45,053 bases of DNA from a virus: the IMG/VR virus record IMGVR_UViG_3300013100_000015, positions 1 to 45,053 of that record; one strand, given 5' to 3'. Both the position numbers and the translations under genes were made by a program. The notes beneath the pieces were generated by a model, which made no database searches, was not told the DNA's origin, and saw only the letters and a program-made list of their open reading frames with translations. Position 1 is the stretch's first letter; every line of letters starts with the position of its first letter. This document shows, in pieces, positions 533 to 30,322 of this stretch.

Positions 533-755
533 CGCCTACCTTCTTCCGGGCGAGGTAGTCCTGAATCTCCTTGCGGAACCTGTTGGCATTCCACACGCTC
601 CAGACGATCAGAAGTCCGTTCAGGATGGCGAACAGGCTACCGACCTGAAGGTTGAGGAAGAGGGAGTAAACGCTGAACAGCGCCAGACCGATCCACAGGA
701 CGAGGAACACGATGCCGGTGATGAACTCCCAGCGGTACTGATACTTCATCATCAT
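519..755 (-). CDS. Small two-helix membrane protein
   Basis: About 78 residues. Two hydrophobic stretches (EFITGIVFLVLWIGLALF and a second around FAILNGLLIVW) predict two membrane helices, followed by a basic cytoplasmic tail (NRFRKE, ARKKVG). The start is ambiguous among GTG 758 and ATGs at 755, 752 and 749; I chose 755 because it forms a TGATG junction with the stop of the lipoprotein gene upstream. It lies in an operon of envelope proteins (lipoprotein and another membrane protein), which suggests a role at the host membrane, such as superinfection exclusion. No family recognised. Confidence 0.7.
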   Translation of the reverse strand: MMMKYQYRWEFITGIVFLVLWIGLALFSVYSLFLNLQVGSLFAILNGLLIVWSVWNANRFRKEIQDYLARKKVGDVAS

Positions 756-1189
756 CACTTCTCGTCGTCCTCATCGTCATCATCGGCGCTCGTCTGAAGC
801 TCGATGTTCGGAATGATTGTCTCCGGGCGGAAAATCACCTGATAGTGATACGGGTCCGCATCCGAAGGCTCGGTCTGAATCGCCGTCACGGAAACGTTGT
901 CTCCCATGCGGAAGATTTCCTTAACGTACTTGTCCTCACCGATCTTGCAGATTACGGTGGTCTGATTCTCCGGGTCATCGTTACCGAGAGCGCAACGGCC
1001 CTCGATTTCGAAGAGGTAGGTGTCGTTCAGATCGTTGTGAAAAACTACCTTGCGGTTAATCTCGAAAGAGTCCGCATCCTTGGAGAGGTTGTAGGATGCA
1101 GTATCTGACTGACTGCTACATCCCGCCAGGCCAACAGCTACAGCGGCGAACGCAATCGCGCCAGCGGCGATCTTGGTTACTTTATTCAT
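755..1189 (-). CDS. Secreted lipoprotein (beta-sandwich lipoprotein type)
   Basis: 144 residues. The N-terminus is a lipoprotein signal: MNKVTKIAAG, a hydrophobic core, then the lipobox LAGC at about residue 24, so Cys would be lipidated and the protein anchored outside the cell membrane. The mature part begins with YNLSKDADSFEINRKVVF, a pattern I recall from the lipoprotein annotated as beta-sandwich lipoprotein in many actinobacteriophages. Two further Cys (GRCALG, VICKIG) could form a disulfide. The C-terminus is a run of Asp/Glu. Function is unproven; exclusion of competing phages is a plausible inference from its surface location. Confidence 0.82.
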   Translation of the reverse strand: MNKVTKIAAGAIAFAAVAVGLAGCSSQSDTASYNLSKDADSFEINRKVVFHNDLNDTYLFEIEGRCALGNDDPENQTTVICKIGEDKYVKEIFRMGDNVSVTAIQTEPSDADPYHYQVIFRPETIIPNIELQTSADDDDEDDEK

Positions 1190-1473: not shown

Positions 1474-1502
1474 TTTATACGTGCACGTACGGCTATTGTC
1501 AA
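1474..1502 (-). promoter_or_regulatory. Sigma70-type promoter of the lipoprotein operon
   Basis: On the minus strand: -35 TTGACA (1502-1497), 17 bp spacer, -10 TATAAA (1479-1474), then seven bases to ATG 1466. The -35 overlaps the stop codon of nadR. The expected transcription start falls at or next to the ATG, so the mRNA would be leaderless. Confidence 0.85.
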
Positions 1503-2539
1503 GCCTGTGCTTCGTATTCCTTTCCACGGCGCTGATAGGTGAGTGGTTCCTGGTAGAGGAGGGTGTTGTTGATGATGTCCACGGCGGCAGTCAGACGACC
1601 CTTCAGGTCATCCTCATCGAGAACGACGTAAGGAAGATCGAACTCCTCCAGAATGTTGATCCAGTACTGATCGTCAAGCTCGCGCTTGTCCCCTCCATAC
1701 CGAAGAGGGTCGGCCTCGAAGGGAATGTTCGACTTGGTGACGATGTAAAGGTCACTACGAAGCAGACTGGCGTGCATATCCAGCCTCCCAGGAACGCTCC
1801 AGTGGTCCCAGTTCCGCCAGTACCCCAGGGTCGAGAAGAGGTCCGTATCCTGAATCACCAGAGGCTTCAGAGCGGTGTCGAACGTGGCCTCCTGGAGGGC
1901 CTTCTGTCCCAGATAGATGGCATCCATCTTTGCCACCGTCAGTTCGGAACCCACTGCTTCCAGATAGGGACGTGCCCACTCAGGAAGTGTCGTGGATTCA
2001 CGAAAGAGCTTTCCCAACTCATTGGTGAGAGTGGTCTTGCCGGTAGATTCGGCACCGAAGATGGTAACCGTCTTCTGAAGAAGGACGCGGAACTCGGGGA
2101 TCATCTGATCCCACTCCCCGAACCAATCCTTTCGTACTTCAGTGCCCTTGGTGTAGCGGACCTGACGATGAAGATCGTAAGGCATGAACACGCCGCGAGC
2201 AACTTCTGCCAGCTTCTTGCCGTACATCTCGGAAGCTACGATGTAGTCTCCCTTTTCGAACCCGTGGTCATTCAGGAACCTAACCCACATGTCCCAGAAT
2301 CCTGGGTCATCCTCTGGCTCCTGAGGAAGTTCGCGGTGAATGCGATGAACCGTGATGATGTCGCTGATCTTTTCGACCGCGAGAACCAGGGACTCGAAGC
2401 GCTCTTCATAGTACGGCTCGTCAGGCTGAGTGTTCAGGATGACTTCAACCCGACCAGTAAGCATGTGAGCGAACTTGATGAGGTCAAGGTGTCCCAGCGT
2501 GGGCGGAAGTGCTGTCATCAGCACGTAGCTCTTAGTCAT
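1499..2539 (-). CDS. nadR: NadR-like bifunctional NMN adenylyltransferase / ribosylnicotinamide kinase
   Basis: 346 residues from ATG 2539. Start chosen because AAGGAGAAG lies 7-8 bases upstream and the 8-base overlap with pncA fits coupling. The N-terminal nucleotidyltransferase domain has TLGH (Thr14 to His17) and a KGTEVR motif near 131-136 matching the SGTQIR region of enteric NadR. The C-terminal kinase domain has a P-loop GAESTGKT (162-169) and VIQDTD (229-233). NadR enzymes phosphorylate nicotinamide riboside to NMN and adenylate NMN to NAD. The DNA-binding domain of enterobacterial NadR is absent, so this is purely metabolic. It sits with pncA and next to pnuC. Confidence 0.93.
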   Translation of the reverse strand: MTKSYVLMTALPPTLGHLDLIKFAHMLTGRVEVILNTQPDEPYYEERFESLVLAVEKISDIITVHRIHRELPQEPEDDPGFWDMWVRFLNDHGFEKGDYIVASEMYGKKLAEVARGVFMPYDLHRQVRYTKGTEVRKDWFGEWDQMIPEFRVLLQKTVTIFGAESTGKTTLTNELGKLFRESTTLPEWARPYLEAVGSELTVAKMDAIYLGQKALQEATFDTALKPLVIQDTDLFSTLGYWRNWDHWSVPGRLDMHASLLRSDLYIVTKSNIPFEADPLRYGGDKRELDDQYWINILEEFDLPYVVLDEDDLKGRLTAAVDIINNTLLYQEPLTYQRRGKEYEAQA

Positions 2540-3146
2540 TGCCGTACTTCTCCTTTGCCCATTCGCGGCCATCGTAGACCTTGACGCCAAACTGTTCCAG
2601 GTCCTCAGTCACGTACTCATCACGCTCGGGGTGAACGGATGCGGTGAAGTCCTTGATAACGTTCACCTTGAACCCCGCCTGAGCGAGGTCCTTTGCCGTG
2701 TGGAAGACACAGTAGTCGTAAGCGATTCCCACGACATCCACCGTGTCTACGTCGAAGTACTTCAGCGCCTCTACGAGTCCTACACCGTGAGAGTTCTTGC
2801 CCTCAGCGCCACTGTAAGCCGCCTCGTACTGCCCCTTCATGAAAACCCGCTCGCGGACATCATCCTGGTCATCCAGATCGATCAGAGGAGCGGCGAAGCT
2901 TGCTCCATCCGATCCAGCGACACAGTGGACGGGCCAAGAGTCCTGATAGTCAGGCTCATCCGAGAAGTGGCTACCGGGCTGGATGTGCCAGTCGGCGGTA
3001 AAAAGGACCAAGTGGCCCTGAAGTTCGAACACGGGGATCACTGCGGCGGCGAGGTTGTCAGCTACCTGCTGACCTCCTGCGACGGCAAGCGAACCGCCCT
3101 CCACGAAGTCTTTCTGTACATCTACTACTACAAGTGCATTGGTCAT
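2532..3146 (-). CDS. pncA: Nicotinamidase
   Basis: 204 residues, isochorismatase-like hydrolase fold. The catalytic triad is visible: Asp9 (VVVDVQKDF), Lys104 (VFMKGQ) and Cys146 (AYDYCVFHT); metal ligands Asp52, His54 and His60 lie in TADWHIQPGSH, and WPVHC follows, all as in nicotinamidases. It converts nicotinamide to nicotinic acid for the deamidating salvage route to NAD. First gene of the pncA-nadR pair. Its own leaderless promoter ends six bases before ATG 3146. No downstream PncB or NadD/NadE is visible here, so host enzymes would have to complete that route. Confidence 0.94.
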   Translation of the reverse strand: MTNALVVVDVQKDFVEGGSLAVAGGQQVADNLAAAVIPVFELQGHLVLFTADWHIQPGSHFSDEPDYQDSWPVHCVAGSDGASFAAPLIDLDDQDDVRERVFMKGQYEAAYSGAEGKNSHGVGLVEALKYFDVDTVDVVGIAYDYCVFHTAKDLAQAGFKVNVIKDFTASVHPERDEYVTEDLEQFGVKVYDGREWAKEKYGND

Positions 3147-3152
3147 GTCTTA

Positions 3153-3181
3153 ATCCTAGGTGAAGGGTGGTTCGCTGTCAA
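3153..3181 (-). promoter_or_regulatory. Promoter of pncA-nadR, leaderless
   Basis: On the minus strand: perfect -35 TTGACA (3181-3176), 17 bp spacer, -10 TAGGAT (3158-3153), six bases, ATG 3146. There is no usable ribosome-binding site, as expected for a leaderless mRNA. Same geometry as the promoters of pnuC, the clamp operon and the first genes of both arms. Confidence 0.85.
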
Positions 3182-3182
3182 A

Positions 3183-3980
3183 TCAGCGGAGGGCGTTGAA
3201 CTTGGCGGGGATGGCAGGCTTCCACTTGGGTGCCTTCTTCTCCACGGCCTCGCGCATGGCCTTACCGGCAGGGTGGTTGGTCATCGACTTCTGACGGTTG
3301 TACGCCTTCTGCCACTCCCACCAACCCCATACCGAGGCAATGCCGAACACCAACTGCTGGATGGCGGCGAAGTACAGACCGCTCGTGAAGTACAGAACGG
3401 TACCGGCGAGGTTCACACCGATGATCCAGACCCACCAGTTCTCCAGCTTCTTGCGGTCGAGCATGAACTGTGCCAGAAGGGTGAAGACGAGGATGGCGCT
3501 GTCCCAGAATGCGAAGGTACCGCCGAGAAGGGAGACACCAAGCACTGCTCCACCGTATGCGGCGGCAGTGACCAGGAGGTACAGCGGGATCAACTTGGGC
3601 TTGATGTGCTCGACCTGGAGCTTCGGCTTGGAGTCCTTACCCCACATCGAGAAACCGACGAAGAGTGCGATAGCGAGGTACGACGACAGGAAGGCGGATG
3701 CCAGAAGGTTTGCCTGAAGGTACGTCACGATGAACAGGGCGGATGCGGCGGCACCGATCATGTAGAACCAGCGGCGGCGCTTCACCGAGAGATAGAAGCT
3801 GGCATAGTTAAGTGCCGTCGCTCCGACCTCGAATCCATTCAGAGTGGTGATCCATCCCGCCCACGTGGCGATGAGGAAGCTGAGAACGGTCGCGACAATC
3901 GAGATGATCGCCGCCTGTACGAAGTCGTTCTTGAGGAACGACGGCACTCTTGTCAGTGCGGGAAGGTAGGGAATAGTCAT
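3183..3980 (-). CDS. pnuC: Nicotinamide riboside transporter PnuC
   Basis: 265 residues with seven or so hydrophobic helices. The C-terminal signature LENWWVWIIGVNLAG followed by GIASVWGWWEWQK matches the conserved Trp-rich region of PnuC, which moves nicotinamide riboside across the membrane by facilitated diffusion, driven by its phosphorylation inside by NadR. The basic C-terminal tail (KKAPKWKPAIPAKFN) is cytoplasmic. It has its own leaderless promoter and sits directly upstream of pncA-nadR, so uptake, kinase and adenylyltransferase are together. Family assignment firm. Confidence 0.93.
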   Translation of the reverse strand: MTIPYLPALTRVPSFLKNDFVQAAIISIVATVLSFLIATWAGWITTLNGFEVGATALNYASFYLSVKRRRWFYMIGAAASALFIVTYLQANLLASAFLSSYLAIALFVGFSMWGKDSKPKLQVEHIKPKLIPLYLLVTAAAYGGAVLGVSLLGGTFAFWDSAILVFTLLAQFMLDRKKLENWWVWIIGVNLAGTVLYFTSGLYFAAIQQLVFGIASVWGWWEWQKAYNRQKSMTNHPAGKAMREAVEKKAPKWKPAIPAKFNALR

Positions 3981-3986
3981 AACTCA

Positions 3987-4015
3987 TGTATATACCCGAA
4001 CCCAGAGTTTGTCAA
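3987..4015 (-). promoter_or_regulatory. Promoter of pnuC, leaderless
   Basis: On the minus strand: -35 TTGACA (4015-4010), 17 bp spacer, -10 TATACA (3992-3987), six bases, ATG 3980. Near-consensus, so pnuC is expected to be strongly expressed early by host RNA polymerase. Confidence 0.87.
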
Positions 4016-4299: not shown

Positions 4300-4305
4300 A
4301 TCTTA
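4300..4305 (-). promoter_or_regulatory. Possible -10 box, leaderless start of the 4293 gene
   Basis: TAAGAT on the minus strand ends six bases before ATG 4293, the same spacing as the stronger promoters, but the region 17 bp further up (TCATGG) is a poor -35. The box overlaps the end of the sliding clamp gene. The same hexamer precedes terL by six bases at 17545. Confidence 0.4.
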
Positions 4306-5511
4306 CTTCACGAAATTGGGAGCCATGACCATCAGAGAACCCACGAACTGCTCGGATTCGTGGTAGATCGGTGCTTGCTTGTTCTTCGTGGACTCACCCA
4401 GTCGAAGCTCAATCTCGCGTCCATGTACACAGGACAGGAACTCCAGAAGGTAGCGATGGTTCAGCGCAAGGTCCTTCTGAGTGGCAGGACCAATGTACTC
4501 TGCCGCAATGCCTTCCTGAGAAGCGTTACCGTTACGATCCCTTGCGCGCACGAGCACAGTCCACTCGCCCTTAGTCTGTCGCACGGACAGGAACAGAGCA
4601 GAGTACTCCGGATCAGCGTTGACTCGCACGCGCTTGATAGCCGAAATGAGTTCGTCACGGTTCACGATCAGCTTCTCCTCATTCTGGAGAGCAGGACCGA
4701 GCACAAGGTGATTCACGGCAGGGAACTCGAAGTTCAGTCGCTGAGTGTACAGCCGAGTGTCACCCAGAGACAGCGATACTGTCGAGTGGCTGGATCGAAT
4801 CTGAACCGTAGGCTCGCTGGAAGCTCGAAGCTCCTTGATAGCCGTCTCGATGAACCTCAGCGGGAAGGTGGACTTGAAGAGCTTGTCCAGGGAAGGCACC
4901 GTGACCTTGTGAGCGCGCACGCCATCACATGCAGTGATCTGAGACTTGGAGACCTCAGCCTGCATCAGGGACTGTCTCGCGGTCGTGCGAGCTACGGCAG
5001 GAAGAACAAGCTCCAACGCATTCAGAAGCTCATCTCGATCTACGTCAGAGACTTCCCACTGCGTGTCGTCGTCCGGAGTGAAGACCGGCAGGGTAGCCTC
5101 GACGGGAGGAGTGTTCACAGTCCATACAGCGCGACCAGAGCGCACAGTGGCCGTTCTTCCAATGACGTCGATACGGACGGTGTTCTCAGGAGCGAGCTTG
5201 AGAATATCAAGCATGCGCTTGCCAGGAAGAAGAACATCACCGGACATACGTACTACGGCAGGACCCACCACTGTGATGGCACGTTCGCCATCAGTGGCAG
5301 ATACCTCAACGGTATTCTTGCCATCGAATGCCTCTAGGAGCACATATGTCGTGTTCGGAATGACTTCCTTGGCCGGAGTCACTTCCACGGCGCTGGAGAA
5401 CAGAGCCACGAGGCTATATGCCTGTGCAGAGAACGAAAGACGAGCATCTACCGGAAGAATCTCCGGAACTAGCTCGTCTTCTCGCTCTGACAGATCAAGA
5501 AGATCGGTCAT
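4303..5511 (-). CDS. dnaN: DNA polymerase III beta sliding clamp-like protein
   Basis: 402 residues, close to the ~370-400 of bacterial DnaN. Three-domain clamp signs include SATDGERAITV near residue 72 and ITACDGVRAHKV near 190, matching the conserved ATDGxR strands, plus a regular beta pattern throughout. A clamp encircles DNA and tethers the polymerase. The C-terminus (SLMVMAPNFVK) replaces the usual MPMRL-like ending, so the fit to host clamp loader may differ. ATG 5511 forms a TGATG junction with the coiled-coil gene upstream. A DnaX-like loader is encoded at 12905, suggesting a phage-specific clamp system. Confidence 0.88.
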   Translation of the reverse strand: MTDLLDLSEREDELVPEILPVDARLSFSAQAYSLVALFSSAVEVTPAKEVIPNTTYVLLEAFDGKNTVEVSATDGERAITVVGPAVVRMSGDVLLPGKRMLDILKLAPENTVRIDVIGRTATVRSGRAVWTVNTPPVEATLPVFTPDDDTQWEVSDVDRDELLNALELVLPAVARTTARQSLMQAEVSKSQITACDGVRAHKVTVPSLDKLFKSTFPLRFIETAIKELRASSEPTVQIRSSHSTVSLSLGDTRLYTQRLNFEFPAVNHLVLGPALQNEEKLIVNRDELISAIKRVRVNADPEYSALFLSVRQTKGEWTVLVRARDRNGNASQEGIAAEYIGPATQKDLALNHRYLLEFLSCVHGREIELRLGESTKNKQAPIYHESEQFVGSLMVMAPNFVK

Positions 5512-8456: not shown

Positions 8457-8493
8457 ACTCCCAAGGGTGGTAAGATATGCCACCCTTGGGAGT
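8457..8493 (-). terminator. Perfect 14-bp hairpin after the 8499 gene
   Basis: ACTCCCAAGGGTGG (8457-8470), a nine-base loop (TAAGATATG) and CCACCCTTGGGAGT (8480-8493) are perfectly complementary. It lies six bases beyond the stop of the leftward membrane protein gene. There is no strong T-run on the minus strand after it, so it may be a weak terminator, an mRNA 3'-end stabiliser or an operator. A TAAGAT box sits in the loop on the plus strand. Confidence 0.6.
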
Positions 8494-10205: not shown

Positions 10206-10436
10206 ATGAGCGACAACGAACTCGACCACAACAACAAGGTCTACCCGTCTATCGACGGACTTGTAGGACAAATCGTGGATGCACTGGAGACGAGCAGTGA
10301 CTACGTGTGGTACTCCTTCAAGCGTCCGATCTTTGGTCCCGGTGATAGTGAAGTGCTTCTCGAAGCCATCTCCTACGATGAGGATGGCGAGGAAGAGAAG
10401 TTCTACCACGTCAAGATCGTCGTAGAGGCTATCTGA
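10206..10436 (+). CDS. Small acidic protein, first gene of rightward arm
   Basis: 76 residues from ATG 10206, set by the leaderless promoter; the frame extends upstream to 10116, but that would place the promoter inside the gene. Acidic (SDNELDHNNKVYP, YDEDGEEEKFYHVKI) with alternating strand-like segments. It starts a run of small genes joined by TGATG/ATGA overlaps. No family recognised. Confidence 0.7.
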   Translation: MSDNELDHNNKVYPSIDGLVGQIVDALETSSDYVWYSFKRPIFGPGDSEVLLEAISYDEDGEEEKFYHVKIVVEAI

Positions 10437-12904: not shown

Positions 12905-13990
12905 ATGACTGAAGTCCTAGCCCTCAAGTACCGTCCACGGACGTTTGCTGAGGTCATCGGACAGCGCATCACCGCCGTCGTCCTGGACAGGATGGTGACC
13001 TCAGGTGATGTGCCTTCAGGTCTTCTCTTCACAGGCCCGAGGGGTAGCGGCAAGACCAGCACGGCTCGCATCTTGGCAAGTGTCCTGGATGCTGGAGAGC
13101 CTATCGAGGTTGACGCCGCTTCCCACGGTCTTGTAGCTGACGTTAGAGCGATGATCGACTCCCTCCGCTACTCCAGCGGTGGAGAATACCGTGTCGTGAT
13201 CTATGACGAGGCTCACAGCATGTCCAAGGAGGCCTTCAATGCCCTCCTGAAGACCCTGGAAGAGGGTCCAGAGGCCACAATCTTCATCCTGGTCACCACG
13301 GAGCCTGACAAGATTCCCGAGACCGTGAAGAGCCGTCTGATGGAATTCACCTTCCGCAAGATCAGCCCGAAGGACATCTTCGACCGACTGACATACATCC
13401 AGAGCGTCGAAGGAATCCTTGCTGACATCGAGCTTCTGAACTACATCTCGCACAGAGCCGATGGATCAGCCCGTGACGCGATCATGATGCTGGATCAGTG
13501 TTGGAAGGCAGGCATCTCCGACAAGGAGACCTTCATGGAGATGTCAGGAGAGGTAGAGGTCGCCCCAGACCTTGTTCTGGCTCTCCTCTCCGGAGACCAC
13601 TCCTACGTCTTCAAGGTTACCGACGAACTCTCTGAGCGCGTGCCTGATCCTTCCAGGCTTGCAGGCATGCTGACGACAGTTCTCAAGGACGTGCTGATCC
13701 TGAAGTCCGGTGGCGGATCAACTCACAAGGAAGAGACTACCGCCAAGCTGAAGACCATCGCACTGCATCTGGAGTCCGAGCGCATCGTCGCCGGTATGAA
13801 GATGCTGTGGGACCTTCGAACACGTGTGCGTGCATCGAGTGATCCACGTGGTAACCTTGATCTAGCTCTTGTCCTCATCACGGACATCTTCACTCAGGGT
13901 CGCCAGCTTGTCCCGCCTGTAACAAAGCAGGCACCAGTTGTGGCACTTGCACCTGAAGAAGGGCGTAAACTTACTCTGGCAGAACTCTAG
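12905..13990 (+). CDS. dnaX: DnaX-like clamp loader AAA+ ATPase
   Basis: 361 residues. Walker A GPRGSGKTS (44-52), Walker B with DEAH (101-104), sensor 1 (ILVTTEPDKIPE) and KSRLMEF corresponding to the SRC arginine-finger region of clamp loaders. Compared with bacterial DnaX (gamma/tau), the zinc module between Walker A and the VDAAS motif is missing: only a few residues separate ASVLDAGEP from IEVDAAS. Clamp loaders open the sliding clamp and place it on primed DNA. The partner is probably the phage DnaN at 4303. The polymerase is not in this window. Confidence 0.9.
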   Translation: MTEVLALKYRPRTFAEVIGQRITAVVLDRMVTSGDVPSGLLFTGPRGSGKTSTARILASVLDAGEPIEVDAASHGLVADVRAMIDSLRYSSGGEYRVVIYDEAHSMSKEAFNALLKTLEEGPEATIFILVTTEPDKIPETVKSRLMEFTFRKISPKDIFDRLTYIQSVEGILADIELLNYISHRADGSARDAIMMLDQCWKAGISDKETFMEMSGEVEVAPDLVLALLSGDHSYVFKVTDELSERVPDPSRLAGMLTTVLKDVLILKSGGGSTHKEETTAKLKTIALHLESERIVAGMKMLWDLRTRVRASSDPRGNLDLALVLITDIFTQGRQLVPPVTKQAPVVALAPEEGRKLTLAEL

Positions 13991-13999
13991 GAGAGATAG

Positions 14000-14983
14000 A
14001 TGGCTAAGAAGATTCTCGTGACCGGAGGCTCAGGCTTCATCGGTGGTCACATCATTACCGAGCTACTAGCTAACGGCTACAAGGTGATGGTGTTCGACCA
14101 CTCACTACCCGGACAGGTGATGGACCCTCTAGGCCCTCGCGCCGTGGAGTACTTCCACGGGGACATTCGAGACGCCACGGCAGTAACGGAAGCGGCGGCA
14201 CACGTGGATGGCATCATTCACCTAGCCGCCGTTCTCGGTACCCAGGAGACGATCACGAACCCACGACCCGCCGCTGAGACGAACATCATCGGTGGTCTGA
14301 ACGTCTTCGAGGCCGCAACCCAGTACAAGATTCCTGTCGTGTATGCCGGTGTGGGCAACCACTGGATGCGTACAGAGGGTGGCGGCACGTACACGATCAC
14401 CAAGACGGCAGTCGAAGACTTCGCCAAAATGTACATCAAGAATCGCGGCGCAAAGATCAACGTCGTGCGACCGGTGAACGCCTATGGCCCCGGACAGAGT
14501 GTAGCCTATCCGTTCGGCTCCTCCAAGGTCCGCAAGATCATGCCGAGCTTCGTCATGCGCGCCATCACTGGAATGGATATTGAGGTTTACGGTGGCGGTA
14601 CACAGATCAGTGACTGCGTACACGTGCGCGACGTAGCCAAGGTCTTTGTAGCCGCGCTGAAGTACACTGAGGATCACGGCGCTCTGTGGAACCCCCGAGA
14701 CCCCTCCTACCAGTCTGACTCTTTCGAGGTAGGTCCTCCGAGGGATAAGTACACCGTCAAGGACATTGCAGAACTGGTCGTCAAGGTGGCCGAGTCTGAG
14801 TCGAAGATTGTCGATCTGAAGATGCGTCCAGGTGAAGTTGAGGGCGCTATCGTCAAGGCGAACCTCATCACTTTGAGGCATCTCAAGGAGTACGGAATCG
14901 ATCCCGACGAGTTTATCAAGCTGGAGGACGGTATTCGAGAAACAGTCGAATACTACCGCGAGTGGGATAGACTACAGTCATGA
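14000..14983 (+). CDS. NAD-dependent sugar epimerase/dehydratase (extended SDR)
   Basis: 327 residues. Nucleotide-binding TGGSGFIGGH at the N-terminus (residues 8-17), FHGDIRD and IIHLAAVLG, and a catalytic YTITK (Tyr-x3-Lys) near 132-136, typical of GalE/RmlB-like extended SDR enzymes acting on nucleotide-sugars with NAD(P). AGGAGAG precedes ATG 14000. It is followed, with overlaps, by glycosyltransferase genes, so it probably makes the donor sugar for them. The exact sugar cannot be told from sequence. Confidence 0.9.
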   Translation: MAKKILVTGGSGFIGGHIITELLANGYKVMVFDHSLPGQVMDPLGPRAVEYFHGDIRDATAVTEAAAHVDGIIHLAAVLGTQETITNPRPAAETNIIGGLNVFEAATQYKIPVVYAGVGNHWMRTEGGGTYTITKTAVEDFAKMYIKNRGAKINVVRPVNAYGPGQSVAYPFGSSKVRKIMPSFVMRAITGMDIEVYGGGTQISDCVHVRDVAKVFVAALKYTEDHGALWNPRDPSYQSDSFEVGPPRDKYTVKDIAELVVKVAESESKIVDLKMRPGEVEGAIVKANLITLRHLKEYGIDPDEFIKLEDGIRETVEYYREWDRLQS

Positions 14984-22453: not shown

Positions 22454-25400
22454 GTGAGCACCGAACTAGAACTTGAGTTCATCGAACTAGCCGTAGGTAA
22501 GGGCCGTCGAGTCCAGACCGCTGAAGGTGCTAGGTTCTACGGTCAGCCTATTGGCACGCTCATCACGCCGGACATGATTAAGAAGGCGCGCTCTGCCGCC
22601 AAGGCAAAGGGCATCACCCCGCCCAAGGGTGGCCTCTCTCCGAAGAAGGCACCCCAGGTATCTGTAGGTGCTGGCAAGGCGTCTCCCGCTGGCAACTTCA
22701 ATGCTGATCCATCCGCTGGAGCACCTGTAGGCGCTGACACTTCCGGCAAATTCCAGGTGAAGCCCTCCTCTATCAAGGGTCCTCAAGGATTCAAGGTCGG
22801 CGCTACTCAGTACTCCGCTCCTTCCGGCTCTAAGCTCATTCGTCCGAAGAATCAGGAAGAGTTCGCGTACGTCGTAACTCCGGATGGTTCTGTTCACGCC
22901 TTCACCGCCGCCGGTGAGCTAGACGTACCCGACTACCTAGAGCCTGTCCTTACGAAGAAGTTCAAGGACCTCAAGGGTGATGACACCCTCTACAAGGTAG
23001 ACACCTTCGATGCCCCGTCCTCCTTGGCTGAGCAGAAGCCAGGCTCTACGCTGTCCAAGAACGGCAAGCCTCTGTTCAAGAAGCAGGCCAACGGCGTGTG
23101 GATGAACGAGGACATCGGTGCTGAGCTTACTGACGATGACCTACAGCGCCTCTACGATGGTGGTAGCTTCGATCTGGAGCCTGCCAACACTGTCGAGGAC
23201 ATCGACTTCTCAAAGCTGACTACTGACGAGCTTCAGGCCGCTCTTGAGGCTATGCCTGACGGCAAGCAGATGAAGTTCTCCAAGACTGTCGTAACCAAGA
23301 AGAACGGCAAGTGGAACTCCTCCGCCACAGGAAAGAACACTTCCTCTGAGGACCTGGCATACATGTCAGCAGGTACCGGCTCTATCACAGACAAGCTCGA
23401 CAACCCTGAGGTAGCCCCAGAGCCTGGTAAGGCTGACAAGGCCGCTAAGGAGAAGGAAGCTTCTGACCCGCTTCGTAATCCAGAAAATGAGCTAAATGAG
23501 ACAAATGCTCAGAAGAAGAAGGCGACAGAAGCCAAGGCTACGGGCGCGGAAATTCTAAAGTCCGAAGTCGGAGCAGTGGTATACCATGACGTTGCCGGTG
23601 CCCTCACCAAGCAGGACAATTCCACCTGGGAGAACACTGACGGAGCCTCCTTCGCAGAAGTAAATATTGTTGACTCTGCCAACATGGGTTACATCTCTAA
23701 TGAGCCTTGGACTCCAGAGCAGAAGGATGCTAAGGAGAAGTTCGACGCCGAGAACACCCTGACGGTTGGGGGCAAGGAGCTATCCACCGTAGGTAAGTTC
23801 GGTGAGAACGACCGCTCCGAGGCCATCAAGGCAGATGGCGGATCGACACCGAACGTCTTCGAGCTAGAAGCTACTCCAGAGAACGTTAAGACGTTCCGTG
23901 ACGCCATGCAGAAGTCGCTTGAGGGAAACCCTTACTCTGCATCCGTGTACGTCTACGACGAGTCCGACTACGCGGGTATGCGCCTCTTCCTGTCCGACGA
24001 TGGAAAGAGCGGTATCGCCCTGCACGACGGAGACGAGATTGTCTCCGTCTTCAGCGACCCCAAGAGCAAGAACAAGAAGGTAGCTCGCCACCTAATCTCC
24101 GTAGCTGTGGAGAACGGTGGAAAGCGCCTAGACGCCTTCGACACAGTGCTACCGGGAATCTACGCTAAGGAGGGCTTCATTGTCAAGTCTCGCCTGAAGT
24201 GGGATGACGACTTCGCCCCGGAGAACTGGAACAAGGAAACCTTCAAGAAGTTCAACAACGGCGAGCCGGATGTTGTCTTCATGCAGTACGAGAAGGGCAT
24301 GGAAGACCTCGACTACGAGCCGGGTTCCGGAGACTACGTAGATGACTACGACAAGGGCCTAGCATCCACCGGCGGTAAGGCACAGGACGAGAACGACTAT
24401 CGTCCTGAGATTGGCGACCCTGATAACGAAGAGAACAGCGTAGAGACCACCAAGAGCGGCTACGTTGTCAACGATGAGGTCAAGTCTTCCCTAGCTGAGG
24501 GTAAGAAGATCAACGCCATCCTCAACCTGAAGAACTCCAACAAGGGGATGTCTCTGGCTGAGGCCAAGAAGGAAATCGACGCGATGGTTCTCGAAGGGTA
24601 CCAGCCCGGAGACACCGTAAGTGGAAACATGCTCTGGGAGCTTCCAGAGGGTGCCAAGATCAAGACCGCTTCAGGTGGAGAGTTCACCAAGAACGAGAAT
24701 GGCAACTGGGTCACCAAGAACGGTGGTGTCTTCTCTTCGAGCGATATGTACGATGACGGTATGGATGCTGAGATTGTAAGCAACCCTGCCGCCAAGCAGA
24801 AGAAGATCGAAGCACCGAAGGTTGAAGAGCCTGAGGTTGATCCTGATGAGGAGTTCCACAGCCTTCTCGAAGCGAATGAAGTCACAGTCGAGAAGCTGAT
24901 TGACCTCAAGGCCGGAGACATCATCTCCAACGGTGAGTTTGAGTTCACCAAGGATGAGAACGACAAGTTCGTCAACGACCAGTTCCTATACGAGTTCGAC
25001 GCTGACGACTTCTCCCAGGACATCGACAATGGCAAGATTTCCATTGTCGAGCAGACCGGCTCTGACGATGAAGAAGCCGTAGATGCAGACACCGCAACTG
25101 TAGACGACCTCAAGGCTATGAAGCCGGGTGACTCCGTGAACATCGCGGATTTCAAGTACGTCATGAATGATGATGGGAAGCTGGTTTCGGACACGAGCGG
25201 GTGGCTGTTTGACCCGCAGGAATTCGAGCAGGACCTAAAGACGTGGGGTTCTAAGAAGAGTGACATCACTCCGTCTCAGACTGTCGAAAAGTACGGCGAG
25301 AACGGCAACGAGTTCCTTCCAGAGGCTCAGGCTAAGCAGGCCATCGAGTCCCTGGAAGCACACTCTGGTTTCCAGATCAAGTACGGACTGAAGTCTCTGC

Positions 25401-28400
25401 CTGAGGATCACCCGCTCAAGAACCAGGAGTACCTTGACGGGTACCTCGCTGACGCCAAGCAGAACTTCTCCGACCTTTCCCCTAAGGCCGCTCTGCTCGC
25501 TCAACTGAAGCTGGATGCCAAGGTAGAGAAGCTGGACGAATGGGAGAAGGAGCTTCTTGCAGAGGGAAGCACTGACAAGATTCAGATCGGCTCTCGTACC
25601 CCGAAGACAAACGCTACCGGTGTAACCGGAGGACAGTTCAACAAGGGCGACGTTCAGAGTGCCATCGACATCCTGGAGAACTACAACGGCAAGCTGTTCA
25701 AGAGCGAACTGAACAAGAAGGGCAACCCTCTCGGTAAGCTGTCCCCGAACGACATCGTAGGCTTCGATAAGGACAAGACCCTTACCAAGCAGAAGTTCAT
25801 TGATCTTCTGAAGAAGAAGGTTGCTCCGAAGGAAGCTCCTGTAGAAGAGGCTATGAACAAGCAGTTCGACATCTCTCAGGAGCCTGAAGAGGGTAAGGTT
25901 GTCGCCGCTGATCCGGACATGAGCGCTCTCAAGAATGCCCCGGTGGGTACCATTGTGAGCAGGCCCACTCCTCCTTACATGGGTACGCCTAACGGTCTTC
26001 AGAAGTACCAGAAGAACGAGGACGGCACTTGGTCTAACATTGAGGGAACTACTCCACCAAAGCAGTCTGATAGCGTCTTCTTCTACAACACAGCCATGAG
26101 TGGTGGGCTGAAGTGGAGCGCTCCGGATGTTCCAGAGAGGGAAGACAACGGCCAGTACGCTGACGGTGACCTGATCCAGTCATTCGAGAACTTCAAGAAT
26201 CTGCCGGTCGGCTCTGAAGTCGTTTTCCAGTCTAAGTACGGTGGAGACCCCTCTACCTATGTAAAGACGCGCCCCGACACCTGGGTAGTATCCGATGATC
26301 CAGACCTCAAGCTGAAGGATCAGAACTTCAAGAACTCCGTCGAGGGTGGGTCACTAAGCTACAAGAAGACAGAGCCGACCGCTCCTGACGCTGACGACTC
26401 TCTGGACGCCACGCTCGATGCACACTTCCAGATCATGGCCGAGCTTGACAAGGCTGTTTCCGTTCTGCCCGCTGAGGAGCGCGGCGAGAACGGTGATGGC
26501 TATGTCATCGTGCACACGGAGAAGGGTCCGAAGATCACGTGGGGTAAGTTCGGTGGTGGAGGTATCGCTACCGTAGCCACGGACGAGAACGGCGTGAAGA
26601 AGGTTCTCATCGGTAAGCGCGGAGACCGCGATGAGTGGTACCTGCCGGGTGGAGCTATCGATGAGAACGAGAGCCACCTTCAGGGATCGCTCCGCGAGTT
26701 TACCGAAGAAGTAGAAGATGGTGACGCCATCCTGGACAACATCCAGATTACGCAGGCGTACCAGGCTGTCATCGGAAAGATCGAAGGAACGGATAAGGAC
26801 TGGAAGTACGTCACGTCTGTTGCTACACTGCCTTCCATGATCGATGTCAAGGCACCAGACAGCACCGAGGACTGGGAACTCAAGGAGTACCAGTGGTTCA
26901 GCGCTGAGGAGCTTAATGTACTCGATGCTGAGGGCAAGCTTCACCCTGCCCTGGGAGGAGGAAACCTTGCCAAGATGGTAGGTTTCTACGATACGGAAGT
27001 TGACGACCTTCACGCAGACATCCTCTCCCTCATGAACGAGCCGGACAACCTCAACGAGGATCGCTACGACATCTCCAACTGGAAGAAGGTCGATGGAGGT
27101 CAGGGCGGATCGAACCCTGGCGGCGTGTATGAAGACCCTCTGGGTAACAAGTACTACGTCAAGGAGTCCAACGGCGGTGAGACGCCGATGCATAACGAGG
27201 TCATCGGTGGCGCACTCTACAAGGCCGCTGGCGTCAAGAGCAACGAAGTCTTCTTCGTTACCAAGGGCGATCAGCGTCTTCTGGCGACCCCGTGGATCGA
27301 GAACGACGGGCAGAAGATGCCATCCGTCATTAACGGAGCAGACCCTGAGTTCAAGAAGAAGGCTCAGGCTGACTTCGCTATCGACGCCTGGCTGGACAAC
27401 TACGATGTCGTCGGTATCGGCCCGTGGAACCTTGTAGCTGACGAGAACGGCGATCCTCTGCGCCTTGATCCTGGTGGCTCTATGCTCTTCCGTGCCACGG
27501 GAGCAGAGAAGTCATGGTGGAGTGACGAGCCTACCGCTATCGATGACATGCGCTTCGGTTCCAGCAACTCCAGTGCCTACACGTACCTCCCGAATGTCTT
27601 CGGTGACATGACGGATGACGACGTGAAGGAATCTGCGAAGAAGCTCCTCGCGGTGACCCCCGAGAAGATCAGCACCATCGTCAACTCTTCCGGACTTGAC
27701 GAGGATACCAAGGCCAAGCTGTACTCGACTCTGGTGATCCGTCGCGAGAAGATTCTGGATCGCTTCGGTCTGACTCCTGAGGGAGCGACGATTGACGTGC
27801 CCGAAGCCGTCTCCGGTACCCCTGCATTCACCAAGGGTACGACAGTCAAGCTGAAGGGTACCGGTCAGCAGTTCCAGGTTGAGCTTTCGAACAACGAGGC
27901 CACAGCCGGTCTCGTAGACGGCAAGTTCCTGGTCTTCCTGAACGACGAGCTTACGAGCGACCTGGAAGCTAACTTCAGTGCTCAGCACGCTTTCACATCG
28001 AACGGCGAGAACTTCAAGCAGGCTGAGGCCGTAGAGGTCATCGACCCGAAGAACCCTGGACAGAAGATTCCTGGATTCGTTATGAAGGCCGACTGGTCAA
28101 GTGGTCTCGTACAGGTCATGACAGGCGCTGAGGGTGGAGAAACAACCAGCATCGAGGTAGACAAGTCTCACATCACGAAGATGCCTCATCAGGCTCCACA
28201 GCGCGTCGAGCTTCCAGAGGGCTACGCTAAGGTACCTGAGGGCCAGAAGGCATTCGGCAAGTACCCGAACCTGGGTTACTACGTCACCGTGGACGAGAGC
28301 GACGAGACTCACGTCTATGGAATCGATGGTAGTTCTTGGGCAGGAGGACCTAAGGCCGCTTACGAGCAGGCATTCAAGAACCCTGAAAGCTCCTGGCAAG

Positions 28401-30322
28401 CTTGGAGCGGAGATGGTTCCGCTCCAGAGCCGCAGGCTACCCCAGAGGTCGAGACTCCTGCCGATGGTCCGAAGGACAGCGCGGGTCAGGTAGTCGCTAT
28501 GGGCGACAACGTGACTATCGTCAAGTACAACAAGGGCGGACTCTCCAACAAGGCCACCATCGTCTCGATCAACTCCGAGAAGGGAACCGCAAAGGTTCGC
28601 CGTCTGGACGAGAACGGTGTGCCTATGGTGGGCGAGAACGGCAAGCCACTGTACGCTACGATGTCGCTGTCTAGTCTCCGCAAGGACAACCAGACCGTGA
28701 ACGAGAGTGGTCTGCCTACAGGCATCACCCTGTCTGGTGGAGACAAGAATAGCCCTCTGTACGGACAGCCTGAGCCTGTCGCACCAGCGGCTACTCCACA
28801 GACCGAACCTGATGCCCCAATTGTCTCCGACGAGTGGATCAGCAAGGCCACAGAGGCTTACAAGGCCTACCGCTCCAAGAAGGGCCTCCCTGAGAAGGAC
28901 CTGAAGCTGTCTACCACTGCTTGGGGACCTATCGAGAGGGCCATGAAGGGTGACGAGTCTGCGCTGACCGCTATCAAGACCAAGGGCTACCTGGACGAAG
29001 ACCCGGCTCTGTATGAAGAAATTCAGCAGGCCATCGACGCACAGAAGCTCAAGTACGCTGACATCATTGCTCAGCACGAGCAGGCCGTAGCCGACTACCA
29101 GAAGCAGAAGTCCGAATGGATGACTGCCAATGGTGTTGCCTCCTACACGCCGATCAAGCACGAGCAGACTCTTCAGATGAACGAGAACGAGTCCAAGGAC
29201 TGGGCACTCAAGAAGTACACCAACATCTTGGGCAAGCTCTCCTCGAAGGCTAAGCAGGGTCTCCAGAATCAGAAGGTCTCTTCGGAGTGGCAGAAGGTTA
29301 TTCGTAAGCTTCCTGCTATCCTGGGTCTTCGTCGTGAGGACGTTGCTAACGCGCCTGGAGTGTATGACGAGAACATGCAGACGTGGGATAACATCAAGGA
29401 AGCCACAGAACAAGCAGGGCCTGTAGGAGAGCCTTTCCGCGCCGTACGTACCATCACGTTCGACCGACTGGTTGGACCAGATGGTAACCCTCTTACTGCT
29501 GACAGTGACCTGACGAAGATCATCGGTTCTATCCAGAAGGATCACGGGGCTATGGAGATTGTTCCAGGTTCCATCGATCACGGTGGTAAGATCGCTGACT
29601 TCTACCCTGTCATCATGGACCTTGCGGTTCCTGCTGACGCCAAGGGAATGTACACGGGCTTCGAAGAGTTCTCCTACAATGAAGAGCACGGAATCATCAT
29701 GGAACCTGGACTGGCCATGTACATCTGGGGTGCCGAGCAGAAGAAGATTCCTCAGTTGGGTGGAGCTACGAAGTGGGTCGTCAAGGCCTCTATCATCCCG
29801 CGTGATGTCCTGCCGTACATGAATAACTTCCAGGGCGATCCGATGAGCCACAACATCCTGATCCCTGGTAAGGACACCACGACAGGTATCACTGCATCTC
29901 CGTTCTCGGAAGAGAACTGGGGAAAGAGCACTCTCGCGGAGATTAAGAAGGCCAAGATCGATGACTCTGTTGTGGACTTCGACGGCAAGCAGTGGAAGAA
30001 GATCAACGACATCTCAACGGGAACGAAGATTTGGTGGCAGAACGGTACAGGTAAGAAGGCCTCTGACCAGTTCCTCTTCGACAACTTCATGGGCGAGAAG
30101 CCCGCTCCGGAAGTCTTCGAGACCGTACAGCCTAAGGGATACAGGTGGACTGAATCCAAGCTGGACAATCTGAGCATCGGAGATAACGTCGTAGACAGTG
30201 ACGGAGATATCTGGCAAAAGATTTCTGGCGGTGAATGGAAGCTGATCCAGAAGAATGGCCCTAGCAACTACCTCGAAGTGGGCGAAGTTCGCTCCAGCTA
30301 TGCCGTCGCATCCTACATGTAA
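22454..30322 (+). CDS. Giant polyvalent protein with GNAT-like, Nudix, kinase-like and ART-like regions
   Basis: 2622 residues from GTG 22454 (TTTAGGAG upstream). Regions in order: repeated small modules of the form L-x2-L-x2-G-x-x-V ... K-x-x-x-G-x-W (about 191, 256, 368, 714, 812, 883, 1155, 1243, and again 2492 and 2569); a GNAT-like domain at about 466-612 (SGIALHDGDEIVSVF, LDAFDTVLPGIYAKEGF); a Nudix box near 1398-1420 (GGAIDENESHLQGSLREFTE then EV); a kinase-like domain at about 1540-1760 (GGVYEDPLGNKYYVKES, RLDPGGSMLFRATG); SH3/KOW-like parts; and a possible ADP-ribosyltransferase at about 2125-2460 (PFRAVRTI; NEEHGIIMEPG). Probably packaged in the head and injected. Confidence 0.8.
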   Translation: MSTELELEFIELAVGKGRRVQTAEGARFYGQPIGTLITPDMIKKARSAAKAKGITPPKGGLSPKKAPQVSVGAGKASPAGNFNADPSAGAPVGADTSGKFQVKPSSIKGPQGFKVGATQYSAPSGSKLIRPKNQEEFAYVVTPDGSVHAFTAAGELDVPDYLEPVLTKKFKDLKGDDTLYKVDTFDAPSSLAEQKPGSTLSKNGKPLFKKQANGVWMNEDIGAELTDDDLQRLYDGGSFDLEPANTVEDIDFSKLTTDELQAALEAMPDGKQMKFSKTVVTKKNGKWNSSATGKNTSSEDLAYMSAGTGSITDKLDNPEVAPEPGKADKAAKEKEASDPLRNPENELNETNAQKKKATEAKATGAEILKSEVGAVVYHDVAGALTKQDNSTWENTDGASFAEVNIVDSANMGYISNEPWTPEQKDAKEKFDAENTLTVGGKELSTVGKFGENDRSEAIKADGGSTPNVFELEATPENVKTFRDAMQKSLEGNPYSASVYVYDESDYAGMRLFLSDDGKSGIALHDGDEIVSVFSDPKSKNKKVARHLISVAVENGGKRLDAFDTVLPGIYAKEGFIVKSRLKWDDDFAPENWNKETFKKFNNGEPDVVFMQYEKGMEDLDYEPGSGDYVDDYDKGLASTGGKAQDENDYRPEIGDPDNEENSVETTKSGYVVNDEVKSSLAEGKKINAILNLKNSNKGMSLAEAKKEIDAMVLEGYQPGDTVSGNMLWELPEGAKIKTASGGEFTKNENGNWVTKNGGVFSSSDMYDDGMDAEIVSNPAAKQKKIEAPKVEEPEVDPDEEFHSLLEANEVTVEKLIDLKAGDIISNGEFEFTKDENDKFVNDQFLYEFDADDFSQDIDNGKISIVEQTGSDDEEAVDADTATVDDLKAMKPGDSVNIADFKYVMNDDGKLVSDTSGWLFDPQEFEQDLKTWGSKKSDITPSQTVEKYGENGNEFLPEAQAKQAIESLEAHSGFQIKYGLKSLPEDHPLKNQEYLDGYLADAKQNFSDLSPKAALLAQLKLDAKVEKLDEWEKELLAEGSTDKIQIGSRTPKTNATGVTGGQFNKGDVQSAIDILENYNGKLFKSELNKKGNPLGKLSPNDIVGFDKDKTLTKQKFIDLLKKKVAPKEAPVEEAMNKQFDISQEPEEGKVVAADPDMSALKNAPVGTIVSRPTPPYMGTPNGLQKYQKNEDGTWSNIEGTTPPKQSDSVFFYNTAMSGGLKWSAPDVPEREDNGQYADGDLIQSFENFKNLPVGSEVVFQSKYGGDPSTYVKTRPDTWVVSDDPDLKLKDQNFKNSVEGGSLSYKKTEPTAPDADDSLDATLDAHFQIMAELDKAVSVLPAEERGENGDGYVIVHTEKGPKITWGKFGGGGIATVATDENGVKKVLIGKRGDRDEWYLPGGAIDENESHLQGSLREFTEEVEDGDAILDNIQITQAYQAVIGKIEGTDKDWKYVTSVATLPSMIDVKAPDSTEDWELKEYQWFSAEELNVLDAEGKLHPALGGGNLAKMVGFYDTEVDDLHADILSLMNEPDNLNEDRYDISNWKKVDGGQGGSNPGGVYEDPLGNKYYVKESNGGETPMHNEVIGGALYKAAGVKSNEVFFVTKGDQRLLATPWIENDGQKMPSVINGADPEFKKKAQADFAIDAWLDNYDVVGIGPWNLVADENGDPLRLDPGGSMLFRATGAEKSWWSDEPTAIDDMRFGSSNSSAYTYLPNVFGDMTDDDVKESAKKLLAVTPEKISTIVNSSGLDEDTKAKLYSTLVIRREKILDRFGLTPEGATIDVPEAVSGTPAFTKGTTVKLKGTGQQFQVELSNNEATAGLVDGKFLVFLNDELTSDLEANFSAQHAFTSNGENFKQAEAVEVIDPKNPGQKIPGFVMKADWSSGLVQVMTGAEGGETTSIEVDKSHITKMPHQAPQRVELPEGYAKVPEGQKAFGKYPNLGYYVTVDESDETHVYGIDGSSWAGGPKAAYEQAFKNPESSWQAWSGDGSAPEPQATPEVETPADGPKDSAGQVVAMGDNVTIVKYNKGGLSNKATIVSINSEKGTAKVRRLDENGVPMVGENGKPLYATMSLSSLRKDNQTVNESGLPTGITLSGGDKNSPLYGQPEPVAPAATPQTEPDAPIVSDEWISKATEAYKAYRSKKGLPEKDLKLSTTAWGPIERAMKGDESALTAIKTKGYLDEDPALYEEIQQAIDAQKLKYADIIAQHEQAVADYQKQKSEWMTANGVASYTPIKHEQTLQMNENESKDWALKKYTNILGKLSSKAKQGLQNQKVSSEWQKVIRKLPAILGLRREDVANAPGVYDENMQTWDNIKEATEQAGPVGEPFRAVRTITFDRLVGPDGNPLTADSDLTKIIGSIQKDHGAMEIVPGSIDHGGKIADFYPVIMDLAVPADAKGMYTGFEEFSYNEEHGIIMEPGLAMYIWGAEQKKIPQLGGATKWVVKASIIPRDVLPYMNNFQGDPMSHNILIPGKDTTTGITASPFSEENWGKSTLAEIKKAKIDDSVVDFDGKQWKKINDISTGTKIWWQNGTGKKASDQFLFDNFMGEKPAPEVFETVQPKGYRWTESKLDNLSIGDNVVDSDGDIWQKISGGEWKLIQKNGPSNYLEVGEVRSSYAVASYM

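Follow-up and report, generated by a model that had tools for sequence, protein, structure and literature searches.

How might a phage keep up the NAD of an infected cell, and which steps of the salvage would it leave to its host? These questions are raised by a 45,053-base IMG/VR fragment (the window, i.e., the whole stretch of DNA analysed here) in which the genes for PnuC, PncA and NadR follow one another at positions 1499-3980 of the minus strand. The fragment belongs to an actinobacteriophage akin to Microbacterium phage Magritte, which is the closest named phage when terminases are compared (56%) and has none of the three genes (0/3). The adjacency of these genes, described in an earlier sequence-only reading of this DNA, was placed correctly. 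The window has a sibling, a contig 136,515 bases long, in which almost the whole window region recurs at 94-99% identity and the PncA and NadR genes do not differ by a single nucleotide; the presence of the same locus in this near-identical contig rules out an assembly artefact.

In transcription order, the left arm (minus strand) encodes a sliding clamp (a beta-clamp-like processivity factor, 4303-5511), a 91-aa protein, PnuC, PncA and NadR, followed by a small membrane protein (1194-1466), a lipoprotein-like protein, and an NT5C-family 5'-nucleotidase (2-532), an enzyme that is also encoded downstream of NadR in the diverged phage L023 (54%). The protein encoded at 755-1189 (minus strand) matches PF25682/PHROG 478, labelled as recombination directionality factor, but reads as a lipoprotein because of its signal-peptide-like start and lipobox (LAGCSS); its relatives occur near the NAD cassettes of L024, L029 and L042. 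The right arm (plus strand) carries genes for terminase, portal, MuF-like and capsid proteins; where a tape measure would be expected, it encodes a protein of 1544 aa. This head-gene arm also encodes a 2622-aa protein (22454-30322, plus strand), the positional counterpart of Magritte gp17 (1991 aa); a Nudix domain (Pfam 1.3e-8, Nudix box nearly canonical) is embedded in it at residues 1374-1490, and if packaged the protein could deliver a nucleotide pyrophosphatase. A DnaX-like clamp-loader ATPase is encoded at 12905-13990 (plus strand), and a 16-bp hairpin without mismatches that leads into T-rich sequence (8457-8493) is likely a terminator, perhaps a bidirectional one.

Three predicted NAD-salvage proteins

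The gene identities first proposed from the letters were borne out by family and motif for all three proteins, and by fold as well for NadR and PnuC. PnuC (3183-3980, minus strand, 265 aa, intact) is a predicted nicotinamide riboside transporter that matches the Pfam NMN_transporter family (PF04973, 9.5e-32, 110.8 bits for a cut-off of 27.3). Its AlphaFold model matches the solved PnuC structure 4QTN in the PDB (E 9e-7, TM 0.61-0.68), and residues W182, W185, Q171 and D175 are invariant across 30 phage PnuCs. Its score against the TIGR PnuC model falls just below the cut-off, and its specificity among B vitamins is not settled by sequence.

NadR (1499-2539, minus strand, 346 aa from its ATG, intact; a longer ORF, 1499-2590, starts at an upstream TTG) is a predicted NMN adenylyltransferase and ribosylnicotinamide kinase. 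It matches PHROG 3462 ('nicotinamide-nucleotide adenylyltransferase') over its full length (1.1e-52), and the kinase domain is clear (Pfam AAA_28, 4.8e-18). The adenylyltransferase domain is divergent, with a Pfam match below cut-off (E 0.054), and TIGR01526 matches at 2.6e-30, far below its equivalog cut-off (105.8 vs 341 bits). The AlphaFold model (pLDDT 93.8) has the two-domain NadR fold: its best eight PDB fold matches are all full-length NadR structures (TM 0.6-0.7), and the structures matched include NadR bound to NAD and nicotinamide riboside (NR). The window NadR keeps the PTxGH, KGTxxR, Walker A and DTD motifs, and a comparison of 30 phage NadRs shows no or almost no variation at the GH, at the KGTxxR Arg, and at the Walker A and DTD residues. 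The HxGH position reads TLGH, the first His being replaced by T or S in nearly all phage relatives; TxGH is also found in the related PPAT family. The protein begins at the adenylyltransferase domain and has no repressor domain, as had been claimed.

PncA (2532-3146, minus strand, 204 aa, intact) belongs to the Pfam Isochorismatase family (PF00857, 1.4e-20), and its closest PDB entry is M. tuberculosis PncA (3PL1, E 1.7e-41). In alignment with 3PL1, the catalytic D9, K104 and C146 and the metal-site D52, H54, H60 and H74 are all in place, i.e., the Asp-Lys-Cys triad and Asp/His metal site of the isochorismatase fold. Its name as a predicted nicotinamidase rests on motif and nearest relative, and not on the NCBIfam nicotinamidase equivalog PRK11609, since it scores below the cut-off of that model (85.7 vs 174 bits); PRK11609 describes the E. 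coli-type bifunctional nicotinamidase/pyrazinamidase, while the best PDB match here is to the M. tuberculosis enzyme. In a tree, the PncAs of the window and L023 cluster with actinobacterial PncAs (99 SH-aLRT for the set), and those of L063 and Atu_ph07 form a separate lineage. A recent pick-up from a sequenced bacterium was rejected, as the best bacterial PncA is only 53% identical. A scan of genome contigs with the single PncA protein gave no match, whereas an alignment query did.

Leaderless promoters and transcription of the locus

A leaderless sigma70-like promoter precedes PnuC (3987-4015, minus strand, TTGACA-17-TATACA) and another precedes PncA(-NadR) (3153-3181, minus strand, TTGACA-17-TAGGAT), the ATG lying 6 nt after the box in both cases. 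A third copy (1474-1502, minus strand, TTGACA-17-TATAAA) serves the small membrane protein gene starting at 1466, and for all three genes the start point expected from the TTGACA-17-TAnnnn boxes falls on or near the ATG. Promoter scores of at least 10/12 occur at 3 of 54 gene starts vs 1 of 1281 other ATGs (Fisher p 2e-4), so the promoters of PnuC and PncA, already noticed in the sequence-only reading, are beyond chance by position. The promoter type is nevertheless not specific to NAD genes, since the third copy precedes an unrelated gene, and for the same reason these promoters were rejected as proof of early expression. Weaker copies lie ahead of right-arm genes at 10206 and 12668. The sibling PnuC promoter keeps the hexamers with a varying spacer, and L029 has a similar box ahead of its own PnuC.

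NadR is without a promoter of its own. It is preceded by a Shine-Dalgarno-like AAAGGAG (2550-2556, minus strand) inside the end of PncA, which its ATG overlaps by 8 nt; PncA and NadR therefore probably form one message, with NadR translated from the PncA transcript.

Relatives of the cassette and the nicotinamide entry step

To what extent is this arrangement found in other phages? A profile search of IMG/VR returned 43 NadR loci, with PnuC upstream in every one (43/43) and a PnuC-NadR gap of -119 to +1362 nt (29 distinct loci measured), so that PnuC-NadR is a conserved unit. It is mainly large phages that carry such cassettes, most of the records being 60-500 kb long. PncA sits between PnuC and NadR in the window, its sibling and L023, and directly after NadR in L029 (adjacent, in another order); in L063/L064 it precedes PnuC by about 1.5 kb. 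The triad is kept in L023 at 50-60% amino acid identity to the window, and its third codon positions are the least conserved (0.39-0.42 vs 0.61-0.73), a pattern as under selection on the protein. In Microbacterium phages Cece (L002, 5246-6004) and Big4 (L003, 5270-6001), the place held by PncA in the window is taken by a protein of some 250 aa that overlaps the NadR start; the Cece copy has no match in Pfam.

Whole-record searches of 23 PnuC-NadR phage records found NAMPT_N in 13 (one of them scoring below the curated cut-off), the PncA family in 7, neither in 3 and both in 0. This zero overlap has p 5e-4 (2e-3 when restricted to records of 60 kb or more) if kinship is ignored; kinship inflates the statistic, and some records are fragments, so that absences are soft. 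Every phage in the 12-row NadR clade that includes the window has either NAMPT or PncA, never both or neither, and well-supported branches force at least 3 changes of the PncA label. With the Microbacterium group collapsed (9 rows), the split is 5 vs 4 (p 0.008).

A true NAPRT (NAPRTase_N) occurs in just three records, all PncA-bearing (3/7), and where the neighbourhood was read, its gene is close to those of PncA and a NadM-like enzyme; PncA therefore tracks the nicotinate route. The 136 kb sibling contains no NAMPT (PF04095 and PF18127 absent), no NAPRT-fold protein and no phosphoribosyltransferase of this family, so a PncA branch in the window phage would need the NAPRT of its host. NAPRT was found in 83 of 118 Actinomycetes genomes, a class-level frequency, the sample being the class of a Mumia genome and the host a presumed one.

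A candidate two-branch module among known NAD pathways

We propose that the locus is a two-branch phage NAD-salvage module whose nicotinamide entry step is PncA instead of NAMPT, a reading to which we give a probability of roughly 0.78. The reactions of the PnuC, NadR and PncA families are established. In a first, phage-complete branch, PnuC would import nicotinamide riboside, which the NadR kinase would convert into NMN, and the NadR adenylyltransferase would convert NMN into NAD. In a second, host-completed branch, PncA would deamidate nicotinamide, a by-product of NAD breakdown, into nicotinic acid, and host NAPRT, NadD and NadE would turn it into NAD; PncA would thus stand in for the NAMPT by which sister phages re-enter nicotinamide. 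Nicotinic acid enters the Preiss-Handler route, which needs these three enzymes, and is not a substrate of NadR. The NAD salvage role put forward in the sequence-only reading is therefore supported, but a single linear three-step pathway is rejected, as NadR does not use the product of PncA. If the enzymes are active as predicted and flux in vivo follows both branches, the module should keep NAD up whatever drains it, NADase defence being one candidate drain.

Could the three proteins instead act on other substrates, with PnuC importing, for example, thiamine, PncA deamidating another amide and the NadR-like kinase using another nucleoside? Isochorismatase-fold and PnuC-family proteins are diverse, and the TIGR score of PnuC lies just under its cut-off, but we hold this reading to be quite improbable: all three proteins converge on one vitamin, the window PncA is closest to true nicotinamidases, the folds match PnuC, and NadR bound to NAD and NR, and NAMPT and NAPRT are neighbours in relatives. 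Alternatively, PncA may be a passenger with no tie to PnuC and NadR that happened to insert between them, in line with PnuC-NadR being the conserved unit and most relatives being without PncA. However, PncA is found near PnuC-NadR in several arrangements and from at least two PncA lineages, never together with NAMPT, and it has been kept across divergence to 50-60% identity, all of which makes a passenger exceedingly improbable.

What, then, would the salvaged NAD be for? The module may serve to withstand NADase defences of the host (Thoeris, Sir2- or TIR-type), with PncA recycling the nicotinamide that the NADase releases and PnuC-NadR supplying NAD independently, a purpose that comes close to an even chance. 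Phage NAD replenishment by NARP1 and NARP2 is established as a counter-defence (PMC11984713, PMC12774641, PMC13232231), phage NadV, NadM and NadR were interpreted likewise by Iyer et al. 2022 (PMC9503650), and PnuC-NadR is repeatedly accompanied by an enzyme that uses nicotinamide (NAMPT or PncA). In contrast, no known counter-defence gene was recognised adjacent to the cassette, PnuC import and a multi-step host branch look slow for acute NAD collapse, and the same genes would be expected if the module gave general support to phage metabolism. Such support, meeting the larger NAD demand of a phage of about 136 kb (redox, nucleotide and sugar metabolism) with no defence role, is a possibility that we would place somewhat below even odds. 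It fits the concentration of cassettes in large phage genomes, also seen by Iyer et al. 2022 (PMC9503650), and the NAD-dependent epimerase-like protein encoded at 14000-14983, but an epimerase uses NAD catalytically, without consuming it, and no NAD-dependent DNA ligase was found in the 136 kb sibling, so that such a ligase is rejected as a user of the salvaged NAD.

We tentatively suggest that phage NAD salvage is modular, with a fixed PnuC-NadR core and a swappable NAMPT or PncA for nicotinamide entry, and that PncA phages without NAPRT borrow the Preiss-Handler half from their host, so that their counter-NADase capacity would depend on host pncB. If true, phages would have a way of reconstituting NAD that is completed by the host and differs from both NARP1 and NARP2, and with it a further enzymatic route for returning nicotinamide to NAD. 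If right, a phage should gain nothing from its PncA in a host that lacks pncB, a lack to which NAMPT phages would be indifferent, and phage isochorismatase-family genes beside PnuC-NadR could be read as nicotinamidases.

How does this module compare with described systems? Phage NAD salvage by NadV, NadM and NadR has been surveyed by Iyer et al. 2022, whose main text makes no mention of PncA, nicotinamidase or PnuC (PMC9503650). PnuC and NadR have been noted in Atu_ph07 (PMC6102473) and in Ochrobactrum phage OC (PMC7139368), and a nicotinamidase appears, without NAD context, in a table on gut phages of the phAss-1 group (PMC10607447). NARP1 and NARP2 restore NAD against NADase defences (PMC11984713). 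The open-licence literature yielded no account of a phage PncA taking the place of NAMPT. PncA is the new component here, and PnuC-NadR an already known phage pair, carried by Agrobacterium Atu_ph07, Ochrobactrum vB_OspM_OC, Sinorhizobium phiM12, the Caulobacter Ccr phages, and Microbacterium Cece, Big4 and Zooman. These phages have the same transporter and two-domain NadR, close together, as the window, and the Microbacterium NadRs are 51-55% identical to its own, but those nearest the window have NAMPT in place of its PncA. Unlike the window, Cece also encodes a PRPP synthetase, and the gene between its PnuC and NadR has no Pfam match.

NARP1 consists of Adps and Namat, and NARP2 is defined by NAMPT and an NMN adenylyltransferase. 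Salvage of the NARP2/NadV type resembles the window in returning nicotinamide to the NAD pool and in using an NMN adenylyltransferase, but it relies on NAMPT, whereas the window would combine PncA entry with the host Preiss-Handler route; NARP2 membership is rejected, since NAMPT is absent from the 136 kb sibling. Closer in their entry step are the PncA-NAPRT-NadM clusters of jumbo phages (Atu_ph07 around 185-191 kb, and G031/G032), which use PncA for nicotinamide and have PnuC-NadR in the same genome, but bring their own NAPRT and NadM, and a PncA of a different lineage. Bacterial salvage by PnuC/NadR and PncA (as in H. influenzae and M. tuberculosis) involves the same enzymes and reactions, from which the window differs by gathering them in a single phage-borne cassette, with a TxGH-bearing NadR that has no E. 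coli-type repressor domain.
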